A program made the position numbers and the translations under genes. Under the pieces are notes generated by a model. It made no database searches. It saw only the letters and a program-made list of their open reading frames with translations, and was not told the DNA's origin. From Dehalococcoidia bacterium (GTDB lineage Bacteria; Chloroflexota; Dehalococcoidia; Dehalococcoidales; JAUWYK01): a stretch of DNA of 28,335 bases. The stretch's first letter is position 1, and each line of letters opens with the position of its first letter. This document shows positions 578-24,784 of the stretch, in pieces. The stretch is taken from positions 1-28,335 of the forward strand of contig JAUWYK010000015.1 in NCBI GenBank assembly GCA_030615865.1. Reading direction: 5' to 3'.

Positions 578-618
578 TAGACTAGACAAGTCTATAGACA
601 AAGTGCTGTTTTTGTCAA
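578..618 (-). promoter_or_regulatory. Promoter and operator-like repeat of the MerR-like gene
   Basis: On the - strand, TTGACA (613-618) and TATAGA (591-596) are separated by 16 bases, a sigma70-type promoter. An inverted repeat TAGAC-AA-GTCTA (583-594) overlaps the -10 box and is flanked on both sides by further TAGAC copies (578-582 and 595-599). Predicted transcription start is only a few bases before ATG at 577. Repeat and promoter are seen directly; autoregulation by the MerR-like product is inferred. Confidence 0.6.
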
Positions 619-710
619 GGGTTGTTAGCTATGGGAATGGTGATTTTAAGGGATATCGGTTCGCAAAACTAGCGTTCTCGGAATCTAAACCTTCCTTCTT
701 AGCCTATGGA

Positions 711-1811
711 TTAGAAGTCAATCGTGCCTATCCGGTAAATCTTGTAGTTGTAGCAGTCCAGTGGCAGCACCACCTTACGGCCATCATAGCCAGTATAGAT
801 ATTGCAAATGCTCAGGACAAACGCAGCCAGCACAACCCAGCTACCGGGCTCCAGGTCAAGAAGGCCGTTAACGCTAAACTCGTAGTCCATACTTGTTAGA
901 TTGCAACCTTGCCAGCCTCCATGTGTTTCCTCGCGGTGTATAAATTTGCAGTCATAGTCTCTACCACATATTGAAGCACGTGAAGGGTAACCCTGAGAAT
1001 CCAGAGGAATCGGTCCAGAAACCTCAAGACGGAATCCTAAGCCATATACCCCTGCGCCGAGTCTTCCTGGATGTCCCCATTTAATAAACTTGATATCGTT
1101 CAGCCAACTTTGGTATTCGGTGGCTCTAACTGCTATCAGGGTGGCTCCAAGATTCCAGCCCGAATATCCGCCCAAGTCGAGGCCGATTATACAATTGAGG
1201 TTTGCGTTGGGGGGAATCACAGCAGTAGGGTCGAATGTGAAGTATGTCTCTCTTAATTCACTGGCACCGCTCAGGAATGGTCCAGAAAAGTCGCCTTGAG
1301 TTCTCATATATGCTTCTCTAACTTCGTCAGGGAACTCAAGCGCACTCTTTACTAGCTCTGGCGGTGTATTCACAAAAACCTCAGTTACAGCCGTAAAGCT
1401 ACCTGTTAAGCCATCTATCTCTACGCGGTAGGTTCTGGTGCTTCCTGGGGTGAACTCAAACTCTACCCGTGTCTCTGCGCATAGGAACGTACGCACTAAT
1501 GTGACTTCTCGAGTAGATACTGGAGTATTGTTTATGTAGAGCGTAACCGGATGAGTGATGGGTCTGCCAACAGGGGAAATACATAGCATCACCCGGCAGC
1601 TAATGGTAACTGGATAGCCTACTATGACTGGAGCGCTTATCCTTAAATCCCGGAAAGAAAAGGGATATTCTTCCACAGGGAGTATAGCCTTGAAACTTCC
1701 TGATAGCCCATTTATTGCCACGTGATAAGTCTTAGCTTCCTGTGGTGTATAGACAAAGGCCACTTCCTGGGACTCGCCTGGATCCAGCGTTATCTTTTTC
1801 GTTGGTGTCAT
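711..1811 (-). CDS. CARDB/Ig-domain surface protein starting with a half domain
   Basis: The 366-residue protein starts with the C-terminal half of a CARDB/Ig-like domain (residues 1-43: KKITLDPGESQEVAFVY, ending INGLSGSF), then has one complete copy (about 48-137, ending EIDGLTGSF), then a beta-rich C-terminal region of about 230 residues that I do not recognise. CARDB domains are cell-adhesion-like beta sandwiches found in secreted proteins. Its ATG overlaps the stop of the previous gene as ATGA, so translation is coupled. The missing N-terminal half of the first domain is present at the end of the previous protein (1808-2080). No signal peptide is visible. Likely a particle-surface or fibre-tip protein; last gene of the block. 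Confidence 0.7.
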   Translation of the reverse strand: MTPTKKITLDPGESQEVAFVYTPQEAKTYHVAINGLSGSFKAILPVEEYPFSFRDLRISAPVIVGYPVTISCRVMLCISPVGRPITHPVTLYINNTPVSTREVTLVRTFLCAETRVEFEFTPGSTRTYRVEIDGLTGSFTAVTEVFVNTPPELVKSALEFPDEVREAYMRTQGDFSGPFLSGASELRETYFTFDPTAVIPPNANLNCIIGLDLGGYSGWNLGATLIAVRATEYQSWLNDIKFIKWGHPGRLGAGVYGLGFRLEVSGPIPLDSQGYPSRASICGRDYDCKFIHREETHGGWQGCNLTSMDYEFSVNGLLDLEPGSWVVLAAFVLSICNIYTGYDGRKVVLPLDCYNYKIYRIGTIDF

Positions 1812-2080
1812 GCTACCTCTAGGGTTATCGTTTTAGTCCCCCTGACTCCGCCGACATTCGTAACCATTACGCTTATGGTTACTGGTTCACCAACATAGAC
1901 TTCCGATGGGCTAATTACAAGGCCGGTGACTACAAACTCTGCTACTGGAAGCTCAAGAACATTAAAGCTGCCGGTAAGCCCATCAATGCTGACCTGATGG
2001 ACTTTAGCCATAGTTGGAGTGACAGTAAAGGTTACCTCTCTGGATTCGCCCGGGTCTAAGGTTACGGTTTTTGTGGCCAT
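1808..2080 (-). CDS. Split CARDB connector: C-half of one domain plus N-half of the next
   Basis: This 90-residue protein is made almost wholly of two complementary CARDB pieces: residues 1-41 are a C-terminal half (MATKTVTLDPGESREV through IDGLTGSF) and residues 47-90 an N-terminal half (FVVTGLVISPSEVYVGEP through TKTITLEVA). Neither half is a full beta sandwich. A strong SD (GGAGGTG) lies before ATG, and the stop overlaps the next start as ATGA. The order of halves would let it bridge a neighbour on each side by strand complementation. That mechanism is inference; the half-domain composition is seen directly by comparison with the complete copy in the 366-residue protein. Confidence 0.7.
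   Translation of the reverse strand: MATKTVTLDPGESREVTFTVTPTMAKVHQVSIDGLTGSFNVLELPVAEFVVTGLVISPSEVYVGEPVTISVMVTNVGGVRGTKTITLEVA
1964..1990. repeat. 27-bp exact direct repeat, copy 1
   Basis: It encodes, on -, the conserved SIDGLTGSF end of a CARDB domain. It is identical to 2568-2594, which suggests recent duplication or conversion between adjacent half-domain genes. Confidence 0.9.
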
Positions 2081-2096
2081 AATTCACCTCCTGTGT

Positions 2097-2684
2097 TTAA
2101 TATCCTCCCCATCCACCTGTATACCAAGTTCCTATATCTTTTCCTTTACAGGTAACCTCGCAATAGACATAGCACCATCGCCTCCCCCAAGTGGCGGGAA
2201 CGGCAATAAATCCCCTTTGCCCTGGCTGAAGAATATCGCCTGGCAATAGTTTCTTATCTGCTTGATATTCTCCTCCTGCCATGGGAATTGGTGCTGCGAC
2301 TGTGGGGATAAGGTCATAGTTTTCATAGTTATTCGGTGGAACCCACTGACGCTGCCGCAGTAAGAAATTAAAAGGTAAGGCTATGCTTGAGTTATTGACT
2401 AGGACAAAGCCAAAGTAAGTATCTTTGGAAGCACACTGTGCTAGATCCGCATGAACATCATTCAGTGATAAGTGGCAATAGCCATTCCAATAAGGGGTAG
2501 TATCAGCGTATTTGTCATAGACATAGGCATCGGTTATCGCTGCCGCAATTTCGACAGCTACAGCCTCAAAGCTGCCGGTAAGCCCATCAATGCTAACCAA
2601 GTGAATCTTAGCCACAGTTGGGGTAAAAGTGAAAGCTACCTTCTGGCTTTGCCCAGGGTCTAAAGTAACCGTTTTTGTTGCCAT
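2097..2684 (-). CDS. CARDB C-half fused to an unrecognised beta domain
   Basis: The 195-residue protein starts with a CARDB C-terminal half (MATKTVTLDPGQSQKVAF through IDGLTGSF, residues 1-42). A separate domain of about 150 residues follows, rich in aromatic residues, Gly and Cys (YWNGYCHLSLND; WCYVYCEVTCKGKDIG), ending in a Gly/Trp/Tyr tail. The second domain looks like a stable beta fold for an outside environment, but I cannot name it. Start: the previous gene ends TAA two bases before ATG, and the SD (GAGGT) lies in the last codons of that gene. Its missing N-half is the C-terminus of the 118-residue protein upstream. Probable surface/fibre component. Confidence 0.65.
   Translation of the reverse strand: MATKTVTLDPGQSQKVAFTFTPTVAKIHLVSIDGLTGSFEAVAVEIAAAITDAYVYDKYADTTPYWNGYCHLSLNDVHADLAQCASKDTYFGFVLVNNSSIALPFNFLLRQRQWVPPNNYENYDLIPTVAAPIPMAGGEYQADKKLLPGDILQPGQRGFIAVPATWGRRWCYVYCEVTCKGKDIGTWYTGGWGGY
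2568..2594. repeat. 27-bp exact direct repeat, copy 2
   Basis: Identical to 1964-1990; both encode the end strand of a CARDB half domain on the - strand. Confidence 0.9.
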
Positions 2685-2686
2685 TA

Positions 2687-3043
2687 TTAGCTTACCTCTA
2701 GCGTGACGGTCTTGGGTCCCCTTTTGCCACCGACATTCGTGACGAGTACGCTTATCGCCACTGGTTCGCCCACGTAGACTTCCGATGGGCTAATTATAAG
2801 GTCTGTAACCTGAAACTCTGCCTCTCCTGGCTCCCAGCCACAGGCGGGGGAGTTCGCCTCAATAAGCACCCATTCGCACTCCGGGCTGCATTCATATAGG
2901 TCAAAGCCCACGCACTTGGTTTCTCCAGGGATACAGACCACTGGTGGCGCCGCCTTAGCTTTAATGGCGGCAACTACGGCCGTTATCAGCCCAAATAGGC
3001 CGAGTCCCGTTCCTACCTTTTGCTTTTTTGTTAGCTTGGCCAT
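2687..3043 (-). CDS. Membrane-anchored Cys-rich protein ending in a CARDB N-half
   Basis: The 118-residue protein has a basic N-terminus and one hydrophobic segment (about residues 10-30, GLGLFGLITAVVAAIKAKA), then a five-cysteine mini-domain (CIPGETKC, YECSPECEW, SPACGW), then the N-terminal half of a CARDB domain (about 78-118, VTDLIISPSEVYVGEP to TVTLEVS) where it stops. The hydrophobic segment could be an anchor or signal. The matching C-half begins the next gene. The protein would sit at the membrane and present an incomplete beta sandwich outward, a possible base for a non-covalently assembled chain (inference). Confidence 0.65.
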   Translation of the reverse strand: MAKLTKKQKVGTGLGLFGLITAVVAAIKAKAAPPVVCIPGETKCVGFDLYECSPECEWVLIEANSPACGWEPGEAEFQVTDLIISPSEVYVGEPVAISVLVTNVGGKRGPKTVTLEVS

Positions 3044-3046
3044 CTG

Positions 3047-3211
3047 CTATTTCTTACCTCCCTTTTTGATTTCTACGTAGCTTGCTCCAAACAACCACCC
3101 GGCAGCCACGGTAAGTATAGACTTCACCTCGCTATCGCGGCCGGTGAAGATCAGGACCAGGCAGCCGACCACCAGGATCAGCGCGGTGACTTTATCCGGC
3201 GACCATTTCAT
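3047..3211 (-). CDS. Small two-helix membrane protein, holin-like
   Basis: The 54-residue protein starts MKWSPDKVTALILVVGCLVL, has a short polar turn (TGRDSEVK), a second hydrophobic helix (SILTVAAGWLFGASYV) and a lysine-rich tail. SD AAAGGAGGTGA is ideally placed and the start overlaps the previous stop as ATGA. Size, two membrane spans and charged C-terminus fit phage holins, but also small virion membrane proteins. No lysin gene is next to it, so holin is a weak call. Confidence 0.6.
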   Translation of the reverse strand: MKWSPDKVTALILVVGCLVLIFTGRDSEVKSILTVAAGWLFGASYVEIKKGGKK

Positions 3212-3423
3212 AGTATCACCTCCTTTGCTAGTTTAATTACCCCGACTAAAATAAGCAACAGAGATATAAAGCCACAACCCCTACCAGCTAGGTAGTAATG
3301 GTACTCTCCCTTCAAGGGAGAGGGATCGCCGGGGCATATGCCTCGGCGTGGCTCCCAGGGACAGAAGGTCTCAGCAAAGCCTATCACGAAGGAGTGGATC
3401 TCGTCTGAAGTTAGTTTCATCAT
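3208..3423 (-). CDS. Small single-pass membrane protein containing a palindromic repeat
   Basis: The 71-residue protein has an amphipathic N-terminus (MMKLTSDEIHSFVIGF), a Cys/Pro middle (CPWEPRRGICPGDPSPLKGE) and one C-terminal membrane segment (GFISLLLILVGVIKLA). The PSPLKGE stretch is encoded by a 20-base palindromic element that recurs at the end of the integrase gene at 22408, so the middle may be an insertion. Translation is coupled to the next gene by ATGA. Function unknown. ATG at 3420 is an equally good start. Confidence 0.55.
   Translation of the reverse strand: MMKLTSDEIHSFVIGFAETFCPWEPRRGICPGDPSPLKGEYHYYLAGRGCGFISLLLILVGVIKLAKEVIL
3304..3323. repeat. Interspersed palindrome, copy 1
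   Basis: On -, CCTCTCCCTTGAAGGGAGAG, nearly a perfect palindrome, inside the coding sequence of the 71-residue protein. The same 20 bases occur on + at 22408-22427. This resembles the REP-like palindromes scattered through many bacterial chromosomes (from memory). Confidence 0.8.
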
Positions 3424-3458
3424 GCTGTTATTTCCTTAACCCCTTGAGGACTGCGTGT

Positions 3459-3842
3459 TCACCAACTTTTATACACCTTTGCCGTTACTATCTGCTCTCC
3501 AATATCATCAAAGTGGACAATCACATAATCGCCCACCTTCACATTTCCAGCTACATACTGGTCTTTTACCGACTCAGTGACAAGACAGTCATAGAAATAG
3601 TACTTGGCTTCCCAGACTCGCTTTATCCTCACTGGCTTTGCCATGCTTGGGTCTATGGCTTCTATGGTGGAGAGGTGAGTTGAGTGAGGCGGTTCAGGTT
3701 CAGGTTCAATCACCGGTAGGGAAGCAATATAGTTATCGTACTCAGCCTTTGTTGCCTTGGTGAAATTCGGGCTGGCAACATCAATGCTCTTGGCTTCTAC
3801 GCTTACTATTTCACCATCGCTGACTCGCTTATAATAGTGCAT
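3459..3842 (-). CDS. Hypothetical protein with C-terminal OB/SH3-like segment
   Basis: The 127-residue protein starts MHYYKRVSDGEIVSVEAK, has a proline/glutamate linker (PVIEPEPEPPHS) near the middle, and ends in a beta-type region (VKVGDYVIVHFDDIGEQIVT) suggestive of a small barrel. A clear AGGAG SD precedes ATG. It lies between the fibre-like genes and the small membrane proteins. I do not recognise the family; the opening resembles short accessory proteins next to phage tail-fibre genes, a weak hint. Confidence 0.55.
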   Translation of the reverse strand: MHYYKRVSDGEIVSVEAKSIDVASPNFTKATKAEYDNYIASLPVIEPEPEPPHSTHLSTIEAIDPSMAKPVRIKRVWEAKYYFYDCLVTESVKDQYVAGNVKVGDYVIVHFDDIGEQIVTAKVYKSW

Positions 3843-3851
3843 CTTTTACTC

Positions 3852-4277
3852 CTATTCTGAGATTGCCCAGTAGTAATATGTATCACCACTGTCATTCAAA
3901 CTATCAGTAGTTGAATAGACAACAAAACCATCACTAGCGTGAAGGTTAGTGCCACCAGCTAACCCAGCAGCATCATATCTTGCAGGCGCATTAGGGATAA
4001 GTTGTGCATTTTTTGAAGTCGAGCCCCATATTAGAACTAAGGAACATTTGAATCCAACGGTTATCTGCCTGTCATCTGAGTTGTCCCCAGCATAGCTCCC
4101 TGTGGATATTGATTTGGCAGCAGGCACATCTATCTCATCAGGGTCAGCACCAGCACCAGCACCCTTGAGGAGCTTATTCAGCGTAATCCCCATTGCGTCT
4201 TTTTCTATACGGCTATTGTCATTAGCGTCGTAGACCGCTTTGGTCATATCGCCGGCTACTACGCCTAGTTCACCCAT
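3852..4277 (-). CDS. Fibre-like/receptor-binding C-terminal domain protein
   Basis: The 141-residue protein is rich in Gly, Ala, Ser and Asp. The segments TGSYAGDNSDDRQITVGF, then LVLIWGS, and the ending SDGFVVYSTTDSLNDSGDTY-YYWAI match a beta-structured module I know from many phage fibre/adhesin proteins: a TGsYtGnG..dRqI.vGF opening, then DGF.v....N..G..Y.W.A. Start and previous stop share one base (TAATG), so it is coupled to the 557-residue protein, perhaps its partner on the same fibre. Family name not assigned; the fibre role is inferred. Confidence 0.55.
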   Translation of the reverse strand: MGELGVVAGDMTKAVYDANDNSRIEKDAMGITLNKLLKGAGAGADPDEIDVPAAKSISTGSYAGDNSDDRQITVGFKCSLVLIWGSTSKNAQLIPNAPARYDAAGLAGGTNLHASDGFVVYSTTDSLNDSGDTYYYWAISE

Positions 4278-5950
4278 TACTCCATCACCTTTGTGATAAC
4301 ATTGTATTCTATGTCCCTATCGGCAGTCTCATCTACAGCCTCTTGATAGGTAACCTTAAATGCCTGATTGGTTACTGCCTCGGAGACTGTCCAGACCTTC
4401 TCAGCTCCGGCAGCACTAAACGAGTGCTCAATCCAAGTCCGGTAGTTTGCCCCATCAACCTTCCTCTTAACCCTAATAGTCCCATCCTGGGTCATGGCAT
4501 TGAGGTCAAGCTCTATTGAGATTTTACGCCTGGTGGTAGCGGCGTCCACATAGACATCCTGTTCACCACCGGCATCCAGGTAGCTGAAAGGTCCGACGCT
4601 CTCGGCTGCGAGTAGTAAAGTAACGAGCTGCTTGAGATAAGCCATCAGCTTGTCAGTGGTTGTTACATCACCAGCGGCAGCGGGGGTGGCTCTATTACCT
4701 ATGATAGCAGCAAGGTTTCCCACTTCCCCAGATAAGAGGACAGCGAGACCCGCTGTGCTGCTGTGGAGGAGTTTTTCTACTAACAGGTGGAGTACTGCCT
4801 TTCCAAGCGTGTTTAATCCATTCATTGAATAAGCAGGGCCATAGAAGGCCAGAGTTCCGGGAACATCGGCGCCGTCTAAGTCTTTGCCAGGCGTCGAGTC
4901 TGGCATCGTCTTGCGTATCTCCCCGAGAACAACATCGGTATTGGCATTAACTGACTCATACGCATACCATATCTCTGTTATGTCTGCATCGCTCATATCA
5001 AGAGTGGAAAAAGTAACACCTGCATCCGCAACGGTGTTTGCTCCAGCAGCAAGCCCAGCGGTATCATCTATTCCCGCTCCGAGGATTGACGCCTCTATGT
5101 TTGCTATTGCGTTTAAGTCTGTCTTATCAGCAGCGTTCCCTCCGTCGGTGCCCATCTTCAGGTAGACGGCAGTCAGAGCATCCACACATATTACAGGTAA
5201 ACCAAATATAGCTTTAATATGAGCAAGATTGGCTGTATTCCACGCAGTTCCTGCAAGCGGAGAGCCCAATACAGTCAGCGTGATACTCTCATAGTCCGGG
5301 TATGTTAGAGCATCAGCCTGGGTAATTGTTATAACCAGCCCCATCTTAGCCAGCTCGTCCTTAATTGCTACGTTATGAACTGTATTAGGTTCCCCGCCCG
5401 CTAGGGCTTCGGGGACTACAAACAGGATTAGCCGAATCATGTGGAAGCCGTGCAGCCAGCCGGCAACCGTTGCCTTTGTATAGTCGTAGCTATGCGGAGC
5501 AGAGCCATCCAAGGCAAGGCCTGTAACCAGCTCTTTGAGGTAAGCCATCGCAGCCTTTACGTCACTGACTGCGCCAGTGGCAGCAGCAGTAGCTTGAGTA
5601 CCCAGGACAGCCGCCATAGCAGCTACTTCAGCGGGAACAAACCTAAAGGTGACTATCTTATAGGGGACTCCGGCAATTACCTGTCCACCTTTGAAGACGC
5701 TGGCTACTGTGACTTCACCAGTGCCATTATCGAAGGCGGTGATGTCTTTGGAGTCAATTTTCTGCGGGTCGCCAGGGTGTATTATGGCCATCATCGAAAC
5801 GAAGGAATCGGCGCCGGCACCTTTTAGGGCAGCATCTTCCAGGCTCAGGCCAGAGCCTTCGCCAGCTCCAGTAGTTACACCCTCGGCAGCAATAGTGGCT
5901 TCATAAAGAGCCTTATTTTCATCGAATGGCGGGCGTTTCCCAGAATCCAT
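4277..5950 (-). CDS. Large Ala/Gly-rich structural protein with internal repeats
   Basis: The longest protein here (557 residues). Two similar modules occur at about residues 112-150 (AAVLGTQATAAATGAVSDVKAAMAYLKELVTGL) and about 408-445 (AAIIGNRATPAAAGDVTTTDKLMAYLKQLVTLL), each followed by a hydrophobic beta region. The last ~100 residues look like an independent beta domain (ISIELDLNAMTQDGTIRVKR). The N-terminus (IHPGDPQKIDSKDITAFDNG) looks like a virion attachment region. Composition and repeats suit a fibre or baseplate-like protein. No enzyme motif is seen. ATG with a weak SD (TGGAG) follows the 153-residue gene. Confidence 0.6.
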   Translation of the reverse strand: MDSGKRPPFDENKALYEATIAAEGVTTGAGEGSGLSLEDAALKGAGADSFVSMMAIIHPGDPQKIDSKDITAFDNGTGEVTVASVFKGGQVIAGVPYKIVTFRFVPAEVAAMAAVLGTQATAAATGAVSDVKAAMAYLKELVTGLALDGSAPHSYDYTKATVAGWLHGFHMIRLILFVVPEALAGGEPNTVHNVAIKDELAKMGLVITITQADALTYPDYESITLTVLGSPLAGTAWNTANLAHIKAIFGLPVICVDALTAVYLKMGTDGGNAADKTDLNAIANIEASILGAGIDDTAGLAAGANTVADAGVTFSTLDMSDADITEIWYAYESVNANTDVVLGEIRKTMPDSTPGKDLDGADVPGTLAFYGPAYSMNGLNTLGKAVLHLLVEKLLHSSTAGLAVLLSGEVGNLAAIIGNRATPAAAGDVTTTDKLMAYLKQLVTLLLAAESVGPFSYLDAGGEQDVYVDAATTRRKISIELDLNAMTQDGTIRVKRKVDGANYRTWIEHSFSAAGAEKVWTVSEAVTNQAFKVTYQEAVDETADRDIEYNVITKVME

Positions 5951-5962
5951 ATATTTTCTCCA

Positions 5963-6424
5963 TTAGGGACCGGTTACGGCAATAATCTTTACCGCGGTCA
6001 CCGACTCAGCAAGATCCAGATTCTCAACCAAAACTTTAATCGCATAAGGGGAAACATCATAGTGTTTAGTCTGTCTTATCGTTGCTCCGATGGTAAATGA
6101 GGGCGTCCAGCTATCCCAGTCTATAGTGTCCCAATTCGTGCCGTCGTAAGAAGTGCGCACATGAATCTTGATACCCTGGGTAGCAGCACCGTTATAAGTG
6201 GCCTCTACCGTGATTGTCAGCGTGCGGTCGCCATCGCTTAAATCAATGGCATCGCAATCACCAAGAACAGTAGTGGCTCCAGCAATTATTTCCGCCTCAT
6301 CAAGTATCTCAGCAGTCGCCTTCGCGCCAGCGGTGGTATCAACCGGCAGTGGATTGGCCGCGCTTATATCAGCACCGCCACCAAATACAAACCGTAATGC
6401 CTTTCTAAGGGTTTCTTCTAACAA
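5963..6424 (-). CDS. Small beta-rich structural protein
   Basis: The 153-residue protein starts with TTG, read as Met, behind an excellent SD (GAGGAGGTG) that lies inside the end of the GDPD gene; the two overlap by seven bases. A short helix (LEETLRKALRFVFGG) leads into a beta domain (DRTLTITVEATYNGAATQ, IKIHVRTSYDGTNWDTID) resembling carbohydrate-binding or neck/fibre modules of virions. The pattern SYDGTNWDTIDWDSW is common in phage structural proteins. Position between GDPD and the large fibre-like gene supports a particle role. Confidence 0.55.
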   Translation of the reverse strand: MLEETLRKALRFVFGGGADISAANPLPVDTTAGAKATAEILDEAEIIAGATTVLGDCDAIDLSDGDRTLTITVEATYNGAATQGIKIHVRTSYDGTNWDTIDWDSWTPSFTIGATIRQTKHYDVSPYAIKVLVENLDLAESVTAVKIIAVTGP

Positions 6425-7299
6425 GCCACCTCCTCTAGCACTTTGCTCAGGCGACCTGGGTAATCAGTAATGATCCCGTCCACCCCCATCTCCAGTAGCC
6501 TTCGCATACTATCTTCTTCATTCACTGTCCAGACGTGCACTTTGATGTTTTTTGAATGTGCTGCTTTGAGAAAAGCTTCCGTGACAATAGGCTGATCATC
6601 ATACCACTCAGGCACTTGGAAGGCGTCAGCCTTGGGCTTATAAAAGGGTACTGCCTTGAGCTTCAAATAGATCATGAAGTCTCTCAGCTCGTTTTCGCTA
6701 GCACCGGTGGCGATATCGCCGGCGGACACCCTAAACCTCTCCATCACCGCACCATACTGGGAAACAACCAAGGTTTTATTTACCATCTCTGCTTGCTGGA
6801 TCAATTTCAATACTTTTAATTCGATAGGAGGATCGAGCTGTTTGATCTCTATGTTGATGCGGCAATCAGGGAATTGAGTGAAGACCTCTTTTAGCGTAGG
6901 AATGGTAATGCCTTGGCCACGGTAAGGGTAGGTTTTCCCTCCATCAAGGGTAAAGCAATAGCCCGCATCGAGCTTCTTCAGATCAGCCAATGTTAAGTCC
7001 TTCACCATACCTGTTCCATTAGTTGTGCGGTCGACGGTCTGGTCGTGAATAACCACTATCTCGCCATCCTTGGTGGCATGGATATCCAACTCGAGCACAT
7101 CGGCACCCAGCTCTAGGGCCTGGTGAAAAGAAACTAAAGTGTTCTCCGGTGCAAGCCCCGATGCCCCTCGATGAGCGATATTGAGGGGCTCTTCAAAATA
7201 GACCTTGGTGGATCTCGGCTGGGCTGTGGCTAGCTGGAAGGCAGCCAATAGAGCTAGCACTAACAGTACAACGACGACAATGCTTACCTTTTTGCTCAT
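6418..7299 (-). CDS. Secreted glycerophosphodiester phosphodiesterase (GDPD)
   Basis: The 293-residue protein opens with a signal peptide or anchor (residues 1-26, MSKKVSIVVVVLLVLALL) and a full GDPD TIM barrel: HRGASGLAPENT (His43, Arg44, Glu52), ELDIHATKDG (Glu70, Asp72), VIHD with catalytic His85, NIEIK (Glu151, Lys153), VHVWTVN and GVDGIITDYP near the end. The family hydrolyses glycerophosphodiesters to sn-glycerol-3-phosphate and an alcohol, using Ca or Mg. All key residues are present, so it is probably active outside the cytoplasm or on the particle. It overlaps both neighbours (ATGA at 7296) and is thus part of the structural operon, perhaps modifying host envelope lipids or teichoic-acid-like polymers (inference). 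Confidence 0.92.
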   Translation of the reverse strand: MSKKVSIVVVVLLVLALLAAFQLATAQPRSTKVYFEEPLNIAHRGASGLAPENTLVSFHQALELGADVLELDIHATKDGEIVVIHDQTVDRTTNGTGMVKDLTLADLKKLDAGYCFTLDGGKTYPYRGQGITIPTLKEVFTQFPDCRINIEIKQLDPPIELKVLKLIQQAEMVNKTLVVSQYGAVMERFRVSAGDIATGASENELRDFMIYLKLKAVPFYKPKADAFQVPEWYDDQPIVTEAFLKAAHSKNIKVHVWTVNEEDSMRRLLEMGVDGIITDYPGRLSKVLEEVAC

Positions 7300-12381: not shown

Positions 12382-12897
12382 TCAAGTTTTTTCTTTTGGC
12401 TTCGCCAATAATGTCAAACCTAGAAATCCAGCACCAATTCCGACCCAGAGCCAGGGGAACTTTGCTTCCGGAGGCTTTACTCCGGGAGTGGCCACTGCAT
12501 CCCAAGTTTTCTCGTCAAAAACGCCGGCATTTTCAAGCTTCACGTGAAACTTCCAGATTCCTTCTTTGTCAATCTTCACGTTTGTTGTTACTAAGTAGAT
12601 ATAGTGAGACGGTAGTATTAAGTCCCTCCAGTTGTTATAGCCGCGGCTGATGCCATCGGGGTCGATAATATCCACGCTGATCTGCATCTCCTGGTTATAG
12701 TCCGCGGTATTCTGGCCTACTCCCGTTCCATAGACCTCATGCTGTAAGGGAATCTCAACAGGGAACTCCGATACGTGGTACTGTTTATCAAGTTCCATGT
12801 CAGTGAGGAGGCATTCTTGCTCGACAATCCTACCCCCGGGTATTGGGCCACCAAGGCCTATAGCATCCCACGTTTTTTCATCTAAAATTGTAGCCAT
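12382..12897 (-). CDS. Ig-like ectodomain protein with C-terminal membrane anchor
   Basis: The 171-residue protein starts MATILDEKTWDAIGLGG, has an Ig-like beta domain (about 40-125: FPVEIPLQHEVY, MQISVDIIDPDGISRG, VKIDKEGIWKFHVKLENA), a second short motif (VFDEKTWDAV), a proline linker (KPPEAKFPW), one membrane span (LWVGIGAGFLGLTLLA) and a basic end (KPKEKT). It should stand on a membrane with its C-terminus inside. Start overlaps the previous stop (TAATG). It is clearly paralogous to the 153-residue protein before it (DPDG, KEGtW). Probable membrane-anchored particle surface protein. Confidence 0.65.
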   Translation of the reverse strand: MATILDEKTWDAIGLGGPIPGGRIVEQECLLTDMELDKQYHVSEFPVEIPLQHEVYGTGVGQNTADYNQEMQISVDIIDPDGISRGYNNWRDLILPSHYIYLVTTNVKIDKEGIWKFHVKLENAGVFDEKTWDAVATPGVKPPEAKFPWLWVGIGAGFLGLTLLAKPKEKT

Positions 12898-13358
12898 TAT
12901 GCAGTCTCTAGCAGTGCATGAAGTTCCCAGGTTCCTTCCTTGTTAATCGTTACTCTGGGAGTAGCCGTATAAATTGCGCCGTATGGGTCTAAGTAAAATG
13001 TCTCGGAGTGACTCCCTTTTGTATAACCGTCTGGGTCTTCAAACCACACTGTGCATTTCATACGCTGGCGACTTCCAGTGTTCATGCTCATAACTTCAGC
13101 AGTAACTTCATTGCCTAAAGGAATTGGCACTGCGAAATCCCCTTCGTCATATCGCACCTCTCCGCTTGGTCCCGCAGTCCAGTCAAGAATAAGGGGATCT
13201 CGGAGTTCTCCCTCCGCAGCGGCAGCAACTCCTATAGCATTCCAAGTTTCCTCATCCAATACTGCTGGTGAGGCGAAACCAACAATCGCACTGTTTGGAT
13301 ATTCCCTAGCTAATATCCTTTCCATTGCTCTCCTTACTGCTGGACTTATAGTCTCCAT
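12897..13358 (-). CDS. Ig-like protein, paralogue of the next gene, without anchor
   Basis: From ATG at 13358, which has the strong SD AAAGGAGGTGA, the protein is 153 residues; a longer in-frame start at 13427 lies inside the previous gene and lacks support. It has a helical N-terminus (ISPAVRRAMERILAREYP), the motif LDEETWNAIG, and an Ig-like beta domain (FAVPIPLGNEVTAEV, VWFEDPDGYTKG, PRVTINKEGTWELHALLE) aligning with the next protein. It ends right after ALLETA, where the next protein continues with LDEKTWDAIG. No membrane span, so it probably needs a partner. Confidence 0.65.
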   Translation of the reverse strand: METISPAVRRAMERILAREYPNSAIVGFASPAVLDEETWNAIGVAAAAEGELRDPLILDWTAGPSGEVRYDEGDFAVPIPLGNEVTAEVMSMNTGSRQRMKCTVWFEDPDGYTKGSHSETFYLDPYGAIYTATPRVTINKEGTWELHALLETA

Positions 13359-13360
13359 AT

Positions 13361-13906
13361 TCACCTCCTTTTGCCGATTAGTATAGCTGTAAATAGAATG
13401 CCTCCGCCAGCTGCTATCCATCCCCAAGGGACTTTCTCTTCCGGCGGTGGCACTTCACCTTCAAGCGGGATATAAAAATCCTTCCTATCTAATTCTACTA
13501 CTGTCAGTGTTAAATCATACCAATGCTCTTTATAGCTAGCCTTGAGCACGAAATAACCTTCTATGGACTCATCAGGCATGGAGCCGAGAGATATATTAGC
13601 TGAGTCACTCCATTCCTTGCTGGTGTCCCAAAAACCAGTCCAAAAACTCTTTATTCTCTGGTTAATTGCTATTGGAGTTCCATCCTCAGCGAATATATCA
13701 CAAAGAACGTCAAACGTGGCCATATCATACCAAGCTCTGGTCATTGCCACGCGGTAGGCAACATGCAATATTGCTTCCTCTCCAGGGGCATACCCGGTAT
13801 ATATCCGGGGGCCAATTTGAGTAATTTCACCTGTTACGACAAGCATGTTTTCTTCAAGCAGAGGCATGCTTCTTTGAGCAATAGGGTTAAACTCTATATC
13901 GTTCAT
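13361..13906 (-). CDS. Beta ectodomain protein with C-terminal membrane anchor
   Basis: The 181-residue protein has a beta-rich body (MLVVTGEITQIGPRIYTGYA, EEAILHVAYRVAM, IEGYFVLKASYKEHWYDLTL), a proline-rich linker (EGEVPPPEEKVPWGW), one membrane span (IAAGGGILFTAILIG) and a KRR end. The tail layout (PPxEaK-PW-membrane-basic) matches the 171-residue protein at 12382, so these are related anchors. SD GGGAGG; start overlaps the previous stop by ATGA. Two bases separate it from the next gene start region. Likely particle-membrane protein. Confidence 0.65.
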   Translation of the reverse strand: MNDIEFNPIAQRSMPLLEENMLVVTGEITQIGPRIYTGYAPGEEAILHVAYRVAMTRAWYDMATFDVLCDIFAEDGTPIAINQRIKSFWTGFWDTSKEWSDSANISLGSMPDESIEGYFVLKASYKEHWYDLTLTVVELDRKDFYIPLEGEVPPPEEKVPWGWIAAGGGILFTAILIGKRR

Positions 13907-14364
13907 ACCTTTTCCTCCCTTTTAGTCAGTGCTCTGGTTAAAAGCCCGACTATTGTGGCCACTGCCACGGATGCTACTCCAATACTTATCCATTTGGCTG
14001 CTTTCGATATTTCAGGCCAATGTATATCTACGATACTCAGTATCTGATAAGCAATAATACCTAAAACTGCAAGGCAGGCGGTAATAATTGCCGCGATAGC
14101 CCAAACTGGGAGCGGGCTAGAGGTGATAGTGAACTCAGCAACAAACCTTGTCACTAAGATCGGCTGATGGTCCTCCCATACCCGCAACCTTAATATATCT
14201 TCCCCCTGATTACGAACCTCGTCTTTGAAGCTCTCTACCATCCGGGCAGCATACCATGCTGTTCCTACAGGTGGGGCATCGAAGCTAAAACTAATCCTTT
14301 CGGCAGCCCCATCATATATAGCAGCCATGGAATAGTAAAAGTCTTGTGTCAGCTGGTATGCCAT
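13903..14364 (-). CDS. Membrane protein with N-terminal beta domain and two spans
   Basis: The 153-residue protein has an N-terminal beta region of about 85 residues (MAAIYDGAAERISFSFDAPP, ILRLRVWEDHQPILVTRFVA) and two membrane spans: VWAIAAIITACLAVLGIIAY and WISIGVASVAVATIVGLLT, joined by a short polar loop, ending KREEKV. Its last codons contain the SD of the next gene. It is in the same operon as the other anchored beta proteins. I do not recognise the family; a particle-membrane role is inferred from the neighbours. Confidence 0.6.
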   Translation of the reverse strand: MAYQLTQDFYYSMAAIYDGAAERISFSFDAPPVGTAWYAARMVESFKDEVRNQGEDILRLRVWEDHQPILVTRFVAEFTITSSPLPVWAIAAIITACLAVLGIIAYQILSIVDIHWPEISKAAKWISIGVASVAVATIVGLLTRALTKREEKV

Positions 14365-23365: not shown

Positions 23366-24784
23366 TTGGAGCAAGTGAATATGGCGGGCAAGCGTTCAGG
23401 TGATGGCTTTGTAGCTCACAAGGACACTCTAGTTAATGCTCTATCAAGGGTATTAGCAGAGAGGGTAACACTCTTTGACGAAGATGTTACCATTGGGCGA
23501 AAAGGCTTCCTAGGTTACCTCAAGGCTTTAGCAGGTAGCAATATCGTGAAGATAGTACCTGCTAACGGTAATGCTAGCGGTGAGCAGGTTACCGATAAAG
23601 GCGTGAAGGTAGTATGTGGTAGCCATCAAAGCAATATCCCTAATGGAGCGTGGCTTAAGGAAAAGATGCCTTTTACCTTTAGCCAAATCCGAATATCTCC
23701 ATCAAACGCTATTATGCCAAACCTTGGCGGTGCAGAGCTAGCCGAAGCCTTATCAAGGGTAGTACCTTTTGCGTCTACCGATGAGGCAAGACCTAGCCTT
23801 CAAACGGTTAGGTTTTACCGAAAGGATAGTAACCTAACCTTGACGGCTTCTGATGGCTTTGTGCTAGGGGAAGTTAGCCTTGACTTTGAAGATGGGGAAG
23901 GTGAAGCCTTGATTTATGCAAGTGAATTAAGAGCTTTACTACCAGCTTTGAGGAAAGCCAAAAGGGCAAAGGTTAGCTTTGAGCAAAAGTCCGATGATGA
24001 AGGCGGTTTGCTAGCCAAATCGCTAATCATCGATACTGAGCTAGTCAGGTATAAATACCAAAGCCAAGAGGGAAAGTACCCTGATTATGGCAAGGTTATA
24101 CCTGGTGAGTTCAACGCTCAAGCTAGCTTTGACACTAAAGAGGCAATCAAGGCAATCCGAAGCCTAGTTGCGGTTTGGTATGATGACAGCCTAAAACCTC
24201 TATATCGTGCTTTAATTCTAACAGTTGCCGATGGCAAGGTAACGATAGAGGCAAAAGAGGATAGAGGCAAGGCGGAGATACCAGCGGAGACCAGCGGGGA
24301 AGTCAAGATAGCGGTTCAAGGTAAATACCTTATACAAGCCTTGAAAGCCTGTGGGGGTATAGCCGATATGAGGCTAGTAAACGCCCAATCGCCTATGCTC
24401 TTTACCGTTGACGGTTACCGATGTCTGGTAATGCCTTTGAACATAGAGGCAAGGAAAGCAGAGGTTACAGCCGAAGCCGAAGCAAAACCAGAAGCGAAAG
24501 CCGAAGGGGTAGCCGAAGCTAAAGCTAGCCTAGAGGTAGCCAAGGCTAACCTAAAGCAAGCCGAAGCCGAAGGCAAGCCAAAAGTGAAAGCCAAGGCTAA
24601 AAAGGCGGTAAAGGTAGCCAAGGCTAACCTAAAGCAAGCCGAAGCGGTAGCCGAAGCCGAAGCCGAAGCCGAAGCGGTAACCGAAGCGGTAGCCGAAGCC
24701 GAAGCCGAAGCCGAAGCGGTAACCGAAGAGGTAGCCGAAGCCGAAGCCGAAGCCGATATGAGCACAGCCCAAGTCGTAGCCTGA
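23366..24784 (+). CDS. DnaN-like sliding clamp with long Ala/Glu-rich tail
   Basis: The 472-residue protein starts at TTG behind GGGGGTGAG. Residues 1-358 form a clamp: ALSRVVPFASTDEARPSLQT, LTLTASDGFVLGEV, ASELRALLPALRKAKR, GKYPDYGKVIPGEF, and the C-terminal MLFTVDGYRCLVMPL, which matches the DnaN end (dgy..yLvMPm). Sliding clamps encircle DNA and tether polymerase. Unlike normal DnaN, the LVMPL end is followed by a 114-residue low-complexity tail rich in Ala, Glu and Lys with VAKANLKQAEA twice. Only one of about 40 leucine codons is CTG and about half are CTA. It may support replication or late transcription of the element. Confidence 0.85.
   Translation: MEQVNMAGKRSGDGFVAHKDTLVNALSRVLAERVTLFDEDVTIGRKGFLGYLKALAGSNIVKIVPANGNASGEQVTDKGVKVVCGSHQSNIPNGAWLKEKMPFTFSQIRISPSNAIMPNLGGAELAEALSRVVPFASTDEARPSLQTVRFYRKDSNLTLTASDGFVLGEVSLDFEDGEGEALIYASELRALLPALRKAKRAKVSFEQKSDDEGGLLAKSLIIDTELVRYKYQSQEGKYPDYGKVIPGEFNAQASFDTKEAIKAIRSLVAVWYDDSLKPLYRALILTVADGKVTIEAKEDRGKAEIPAETSGEVKIAVQGKYLIQALKACGGIADMRLVNAQSPMLFTVDGYRCLVMPLNIEARKAEVTAEAEAKPEAKAEGVAEAKASLEVAKANLKQAEAEGKPKVKAKAKKAVKVAKANLKQAEAVAEAEAEAEAVTEAVAEAEAEAEAVTEEVAEAEAEADMSTAQVVA
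24638..24755 (+). repeat. GCCGAA simple repeat in the clamp tail
   Basis: Tandem GCCGAA units interrupted by GCGGTAGCC / GCGGTAACC blocks encode the EAEAEAEAV repeats at the clamp C-terminus. Such DNA is prone to length change by slippage. Confidence 0.85.

Follow-up and report, generated by a model that had tools for sequence, protein, structure and literature searches.

A 28,335-nucleotide stretch of a Dehalococcoidia bacterium contig (GenBank assembly GCA_030615865.1, contig JAUWYK010000015.1; hereafter the window) carries four consecutive reverse-strand genes, between positions 711 and 3043, whose products begin or end in parts of an immunoglobulin-like (Ig-like) domain. Their order is a 118-amino acid (aa) base, a 195-aa head (head 1), a 90-aa link, and a 366-aa head (head 2). 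The gene boundaries coincide with one single turn of a CARDB/fibronectin type III (FnIII)-like domain, which is cut there at the C-terminus of the base, at the N-termini of head 1, link, and head 2, and again at the C-terminus of the link. The part before the turn is called here the N-half and the part after it the C-half. An earlier note on this DNA had claimed that four consecutive genes carry domain halves cut at the same turn, and both the open reading frames (ORFs) and the alignment with relatives confirm it.

The base (2687-3043, by ORF call) consists of an N-terminal hydrophobic stretch (hydropathy 1.81 over 19 residues), a Cys-rich part, and a closing N-half with strands A, B, and C (2690-2818). 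A hydropathy cut of 1.6 is reached by 19 of the 22 base-like proteins, the window base counted, and of the three that fall short, at least one sequence is partial. Head 1 (2097-2684, by ORF and relatives) opens with a C-half (residues 1-41; 2562-2684), followed by a domain without assigned function. The link (1808-2080), preceded by the strong Shine-Dalgarno sequence AGGAGGTG (2085-2092; -11.6 kcal/mol), has a C-half in residues 1-41 and an N-half in residues 48-90. Head 2 (711-1811) joins a C-half (residues 1-42) to an intact CARDB-like copy and a further domain without assigned function; the turn within the intact copy, VTLYINNTPVSTREVTL (1497-1547), contains neither Met nor a Shine-Dalgarno sequence and serves as an internal control. 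The Shine-Dalgarno-like sites of the two heads, AGAGGTA for the 195-aa gene (2693-2699; -7.1 kcal/mol) and AGAGGT for the 366-aa gene (1815-1820; -6.4 kcal/mol), lie over the Glu-Val codons that end the base and the link, respectively. Base and link have N-halves with 79% identity (34/43 residues), and the three C-halves share 59-76% pairwise, with 76% (31/41) between head 1 and link. With such similarity, one socket could serve different heads, and one link could follow another. Within 600-4300, neither promoter-like sites (3 vs a shuffle mean of 4.4) nor terminator-like sites (2 vs 2.8 in shuffles) were in excess.

The position of the cut is conserved among relatives. A search with the base, under a length filter of 0.55-1.75 times the query, returned 47 proteins from many contigs and several sources, two of them the window's own, comprising 22 bases, 21 links, and 4 base-link fusions; longer fusions could not turn up under this filter. 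The C-terminus falls at the same turn in all 47. A TN.G motif precedes the C-terminus by 17 residues in 22/22 bases and 20/21 links, and by 18 in the remaining link, and the four fusions end in the same alignment column. All 21 link-like proteins, the window link counted, are 89-91 aa long. Additionally, the cut is present in three IMG/VR virus contigs (L006, L011, and L012; L008-L010 and L013-L015 are repeats of these contigs), and each of the four loci with DNA, the window included, holds both an N-half-ending and a C-half-starting gene. A haloarchaeal locus (L007; 45% over 47 residues) was left out.

The heads occur on both split and continuous stalks. The search with the 366-aa protein gave 18 matches. 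By inspection, eight of these open with a C-half (seven with the same head, P0018 with another), three carry the same head with a different start (P0006, P0008, and P0012), five are single genes with an apparent N-terminal anchor, a continuous stalk, and the 366-type head (P0009, P0011, and P0013-P0015), and two are other CARDB-containing proteins (P0016 and P0017). Four of the six matches to the 195-aa protein start with a C-half (P0020, P0022, P0024, and the window's own), and the other two place the 195-type head on other stalks (P0021 and P0023). The presence of the same heads on continuous and split stalks is an argument for base, link, and head working together as a single chain. The earlier note had called for a search for fused versions, which exist both as base-link fusions and as single-gene head forms; homologues that are always one gene, which it had named as refuting its proposal, are not what is seen, as they are split as a rule and fused in some cases.

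Two features of individual head proteins stand apart. The stalk of P0023 is hydrophobic at its N-terminus and, according to precomputed zinc-finger labels, contains two C2H2 motifs. By eye, P0006, P0008, and P0012 start with a piece similar to the final hairpin of the CarboxypepD_reg domain of P0009 and P0015, and to judge from this resemblance the family may contain a second kind of split domain; Pfam gave no match at E<=0.01 for P0006 and P0008, and no partner gene was seen.

The link is predicted to be incomplete on its own. In the AlphaFold model of the isolated link, the two halves are unpaired; the base-link protein of L011, fused in nature, was modelled with one domain complete and a further half left open. 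The link, the sole window protein modelled, is thus predicted as incomplete and does not show the complete, stable domain that the earlier note had named, for every single protein, as refuting its proposal. An Ig-like subunit that is incomplete in isolation, as in donor-strand polymers, is thereby predicted for the link. The seven-stranded sandwich characteristic of CARDB was found, and Pfam CARDB (PF07705) scored the link at 21.0 bits against a cut-off of 22.7, with no CARDB match at E<=0.1 for the base, 195-aa, and 366-aa proteins. A precomputed PF07705 label is attached to 4/4 base-link fusions and 5/21 links of the base search. Nine proteins scanned with NCBIfam gave nothing above its cut-off, and Foldseek with the link model gave no match at E<=0.001.

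The sequence itself shows that the genes are separate, that the cut is fixed, and where the start sites lie. We consider it probable, at roughly three in four, that the cluster encodes a viral chain joined through split Ig-like domains, base-(link)n-head, with the heads sharing one socket. The base, ending in strands A-B-C, would offer an N-half; the link would supply the missing strands C'/D-E-F-G at its start and close with a new A-B-C; and the heads would open with C'/D-E-F-G. Each N-half would form one sandwich with the C-half of the next protein, the link passing on a fresh N-half, so that a modular stalk could carry different heads on one socket. That N-half and C-half make up one domain is predicted by modelling; pairing between chains, polymerisation, the value of n, and a location on the virion or the infected cell are what we infer. 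The earlier proposal that neighbours complete each other's sandwich is partly supported and is the reading best backed by the conserved cut, the predicted unpaired link, the predicted complete domain of the fused L011 protein, and a link C-half that has no N-half before it in cis; the pairing itself is putative.

Donor-strand polymers are among the closest known systems. In chaperone-usher pili, one strand donated from an N-terminal extension completes an Ig-like subunit (PMC4654587), and archaeal threads likewise use donor-strand complementation between Ig-like subunits (PMC9715654). Both share with the arrangement proposed here an incomplete Ig-like subunit completed by its neighbour in a non-covalent head-to-tail chain, the pairing in our case being putative. 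However, a single strand is donated in pili, whereas here a half of about 41-43 residues would come from each side of a cut at the hairpin, and base, link, and head are separate genes. The likeness to donor-strand pili drawn in the earlier note therefore holds in principle and fails in detail, since a half-domain would be shared rather than one strand. A Pfam scan of 28 window proteins, part of the ORFs of a contig that may be a fragment, recognised no chaperone or usher. Unlike here, CARDB (PF07705; PDB 3idu) and the FnIII-like domains of GH3 enzymes keep the domain inside one chain. Strand donation and half-Ig exchange are known; their combination in a conserved gene architecture, with the domain split at one fixed turn and a link made of two halves, was not met in literature searches, short on subscription papers, on split CARDB/Ig genes, half-domain fibres, and nested starts in viruses. 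If the proposal is true, this would be a natural half-domain plug and socket on separate genes, kept across a virus group, and would represent a new way of building modular appendages and a ready-made split-protein tool.

Half-domain exchange might also be closed, with swapped link dimers or one fixed link per chain and no polymer, which we regard as rather unlikely. The Ig fold of CD2 and CD19 parts into AB-CC' and DE-FG halves able to pair with a partner, CD2 forming a swapped dimer via its DE-FG half and CD19 interleaving its halves (PMC8470474), and the chain length proposed here is itself conjectural. In those proteins, however, both halves belong to one chain, in contrast to the separate gene products and conserved gene architecture of the present family. 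A link dimer would moreover strand base and heads, yet N-half-ending and C-half-starting genes are kept together at 4/4 loci, and the short joint between the link halves may favour the open form. It is less probable still that the halves bind a host or virion protein, or fold otherwise alone, and do not complement each other. Single-chain predictions would be compatible with this, but in alignment each half corresponds to one part of a naturally fused domain, the genes sit side by side or overlap, and modelling predicts a regular domain for the fused form.

Programmed frameshifting or stop readthrough, which would yield continuous proteins and make the separate ORFs only apparent, is very improbable. 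The window and the three virus contigs provide six N-half/C-half gene junctions with DNA. The downstream gene lies in the -1 frame at four of these (window 118/195, window 90/366, L012 78/89, and L006 187/250), and the Ig-like extensions of tailed phages are frequently appended through a frameshift, which can go either way (PMC5009743), so varied frames alone do not exclude it. Those extensions resemble the present genes in that viral Ig-like domains stand at gene ends with the downstream part in another frame; they differ in that the cut here lies inside the domain, frames vary, and starts are independent. The L011 173/305 junction is in the +1 frame, the L012 89/401 junction is an in-frame stop with an ATG directly after it, and ordinary ATGA and TAGTG overlaps likewise give a -1 frame. 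A Shine-Dalgarno-like site and a start codon serve the downstream gene at all six junctions. As the earlier note had observed, no classic slippery heptamer is visible: an in-frame X_XXY_YYZ in the 45 bases before the stop was found at 0/6 junctions, in a search model that leaves +1 shift sites aside. Furthermore, the protein upstream of the window link (195 aa) does not end in an N-half, and no frameshift could therefore complete the link's first half. The use of all three frames, the own start sites, and the missing heptamer thus disfavour frameshifting, and the -1 shift offered as an alternative in the earlier note is not supported.

The start sites are embedded in the protein ends. GAG GTN, encoding Glu-Val at the end of the N-half, doubles as the Shine-Dalgarno-like site of the next gene at 5/6 junctions; at the L011 junction the site lies past the stop. 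Glu-Val or Glu-Ile occurs close to the C-terminus in 42/43 bases and links, perhaps kept there because its codons double as the ribosome site. We do not claim overproduction of the link through a stronger Shine-Dalgarno sequence: the link's site beats those of the heads in the window, L006, and L011 but equals that of the head in L012, and the window base and link are near equal (-10.6 vs -11.6 kcal/mol). Finally, a single gene broken up by sequencing or assembly errors is refuted by the same limits in independent contigs, namely those of the 47/47 base-search matches and the three IMG/VR contigs.

Fused base-link genes suggest how fused and split forms are connected. L006 and L011 each encode base and link in a single ORF whose joining turn reads Leu-Gly-Gly-Asp-Phe-Met, with GGAGGTG 5 bases upstream of the ATG (-11.5 kcal/mol), and translation from this internal in-frame ATG would give a 90-aa product in either case. 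Between the two, the codons for Leu-Gly-Gly-Asp agree at 4/4 positions, while the next shared codon, Phe, differs; over the whole protein, 31/83 shared degenerate residues use the identical codon. A Met lies at or near the turn in 6/6 fusions (four known as proteins only), with internal products of 90, 90, 89, 89, 93, and 98 aa, compared with 0/20 turns of the set's other, uncut CARDB-like copies (Fisher 4e-6, the sequences being related). The weight lies in position, product length, and conservation coming together; a strong internal Shine-Dalgarno sequence by itself is uncommon, not rare. Judged from sequence, the internal start points to a way for genes to pass between the fused and the split form while the 90-aa product stays the same.

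The same half-domain appears at the start of a protein of known structure. PDB 8dot, a 458-aa 'methane clathrate binding protein', was matched by the link profile at E=7e-13, with residues 1-51 of both aligned residue 1 to residue 1 from the same Met. The L011 head matched it at E=1.5e-11, and the window 195-aa and 366-aa proteins and the L011, L012, and P0018 heads all match within its first 39-57 residues; these five heads gave nothing significant further along 8dot. By alignment, the cut is also where 8dot begins, with an apparent orphan C-half. The protein is reportedly extended and non-globular, with an exposed hydrophobic surface. A direct prediction is that the approximately 40 first residues of 8dot are a half-domain that should bind an N-half from a neighbouring gene. 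We tentatively propose, as a possibility that falls somewhat short of an even chance, a viral self-assembling fibre of 90-aa half-Ig links of any length with exchangeable heads, the link coming from its own gene or a hidden start and 8dot being a head studied apart from the partner that would fill its open half.

Several observations weigh against the proposed chain and this extension of it. The AlphaFold predictions are of single chains, with the link the only one of the four window proteins modelled, and one of the five link models was poor (57.7). Foldseek did not return 8dot among the 33 matches of the link model, which settles nothing. A Shine-Dalgarno sequence of -9 kcal/mol or lower occurs at 17/404 internal in-frame ATGs of long ORFs, the L006 and L011 sites counted, so that this feature alone is a weak signal; the two internal starts with DNA evidence are also homologous. 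The Shine-Dalgarno sequence of the L012 link is no stronger than that of its head. By hydropathy, an N-terminal hydrophobic stretch was seen in 0/21 links and in none of the heads of the window, L006, L011, and L012, and the L006 base ORF shows no anchor. Links and heads without an export signal would be assembled in the cytoplasm, on the virion, or after lysis, and with an outward-facing base, contact would be made only after lysis. Lastly, the link had 0/5 matches in L001-L005, virus contig fragments that share another structural gene with the window and were found with its 391-aa protein.

The split-domain genes belong to a group of little-known sediment viruses. Ordered gene blocks are common to the window and each of the three IMG/VR contigs, and the window carries a sliding-clamp-like gene and an integrase. 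The sliding-clamp-like protein has a counterpart in the L012 contig with 52% identity over 366 residues. Among the proteins scanned, no terminase, portal, or capsid was matched; Terminase_3 (PF04466) was found in 0/3 contigs, tblastn of the 366-aa head and the link against named phages gave no match, and some further queries of viral contigs gave no relative. On plasmids, the link has nine haloarchaeal matches, all below 40% identity, five of which are annotated as CARDB or PKD-domain proteins.

Other genes nearby have features of their own. The sliding-clamp-like gene (23366-24784, forward strand; PF00712) ends in a long Ala-Glu-rich repetitive tail. At 6418-7299 (reverse strand), the same gene block holds a glycerophosphodiester phosphodiesterase (GDPD, PF03009, E=7e-55) whose N-terminus is hydrophobic by eye. 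Downstream of the L011 head and a small gene, L011:7553-8314 encodes a GGDSGSLV motif reminiscent, by eye, of trypsin-like proteases, for which Pfam gives only a sub-threshold Nal1_C. Consecutive genes of about 150-180 aa occupy 12382-14364 (reverse strand), of which at least three (171, 181, and 153 aa) have, by eye, a hydrophobic segment close to the C-terminus; each gene product, scanned against a single library, gave no match there, and one of them has a relative in L020.
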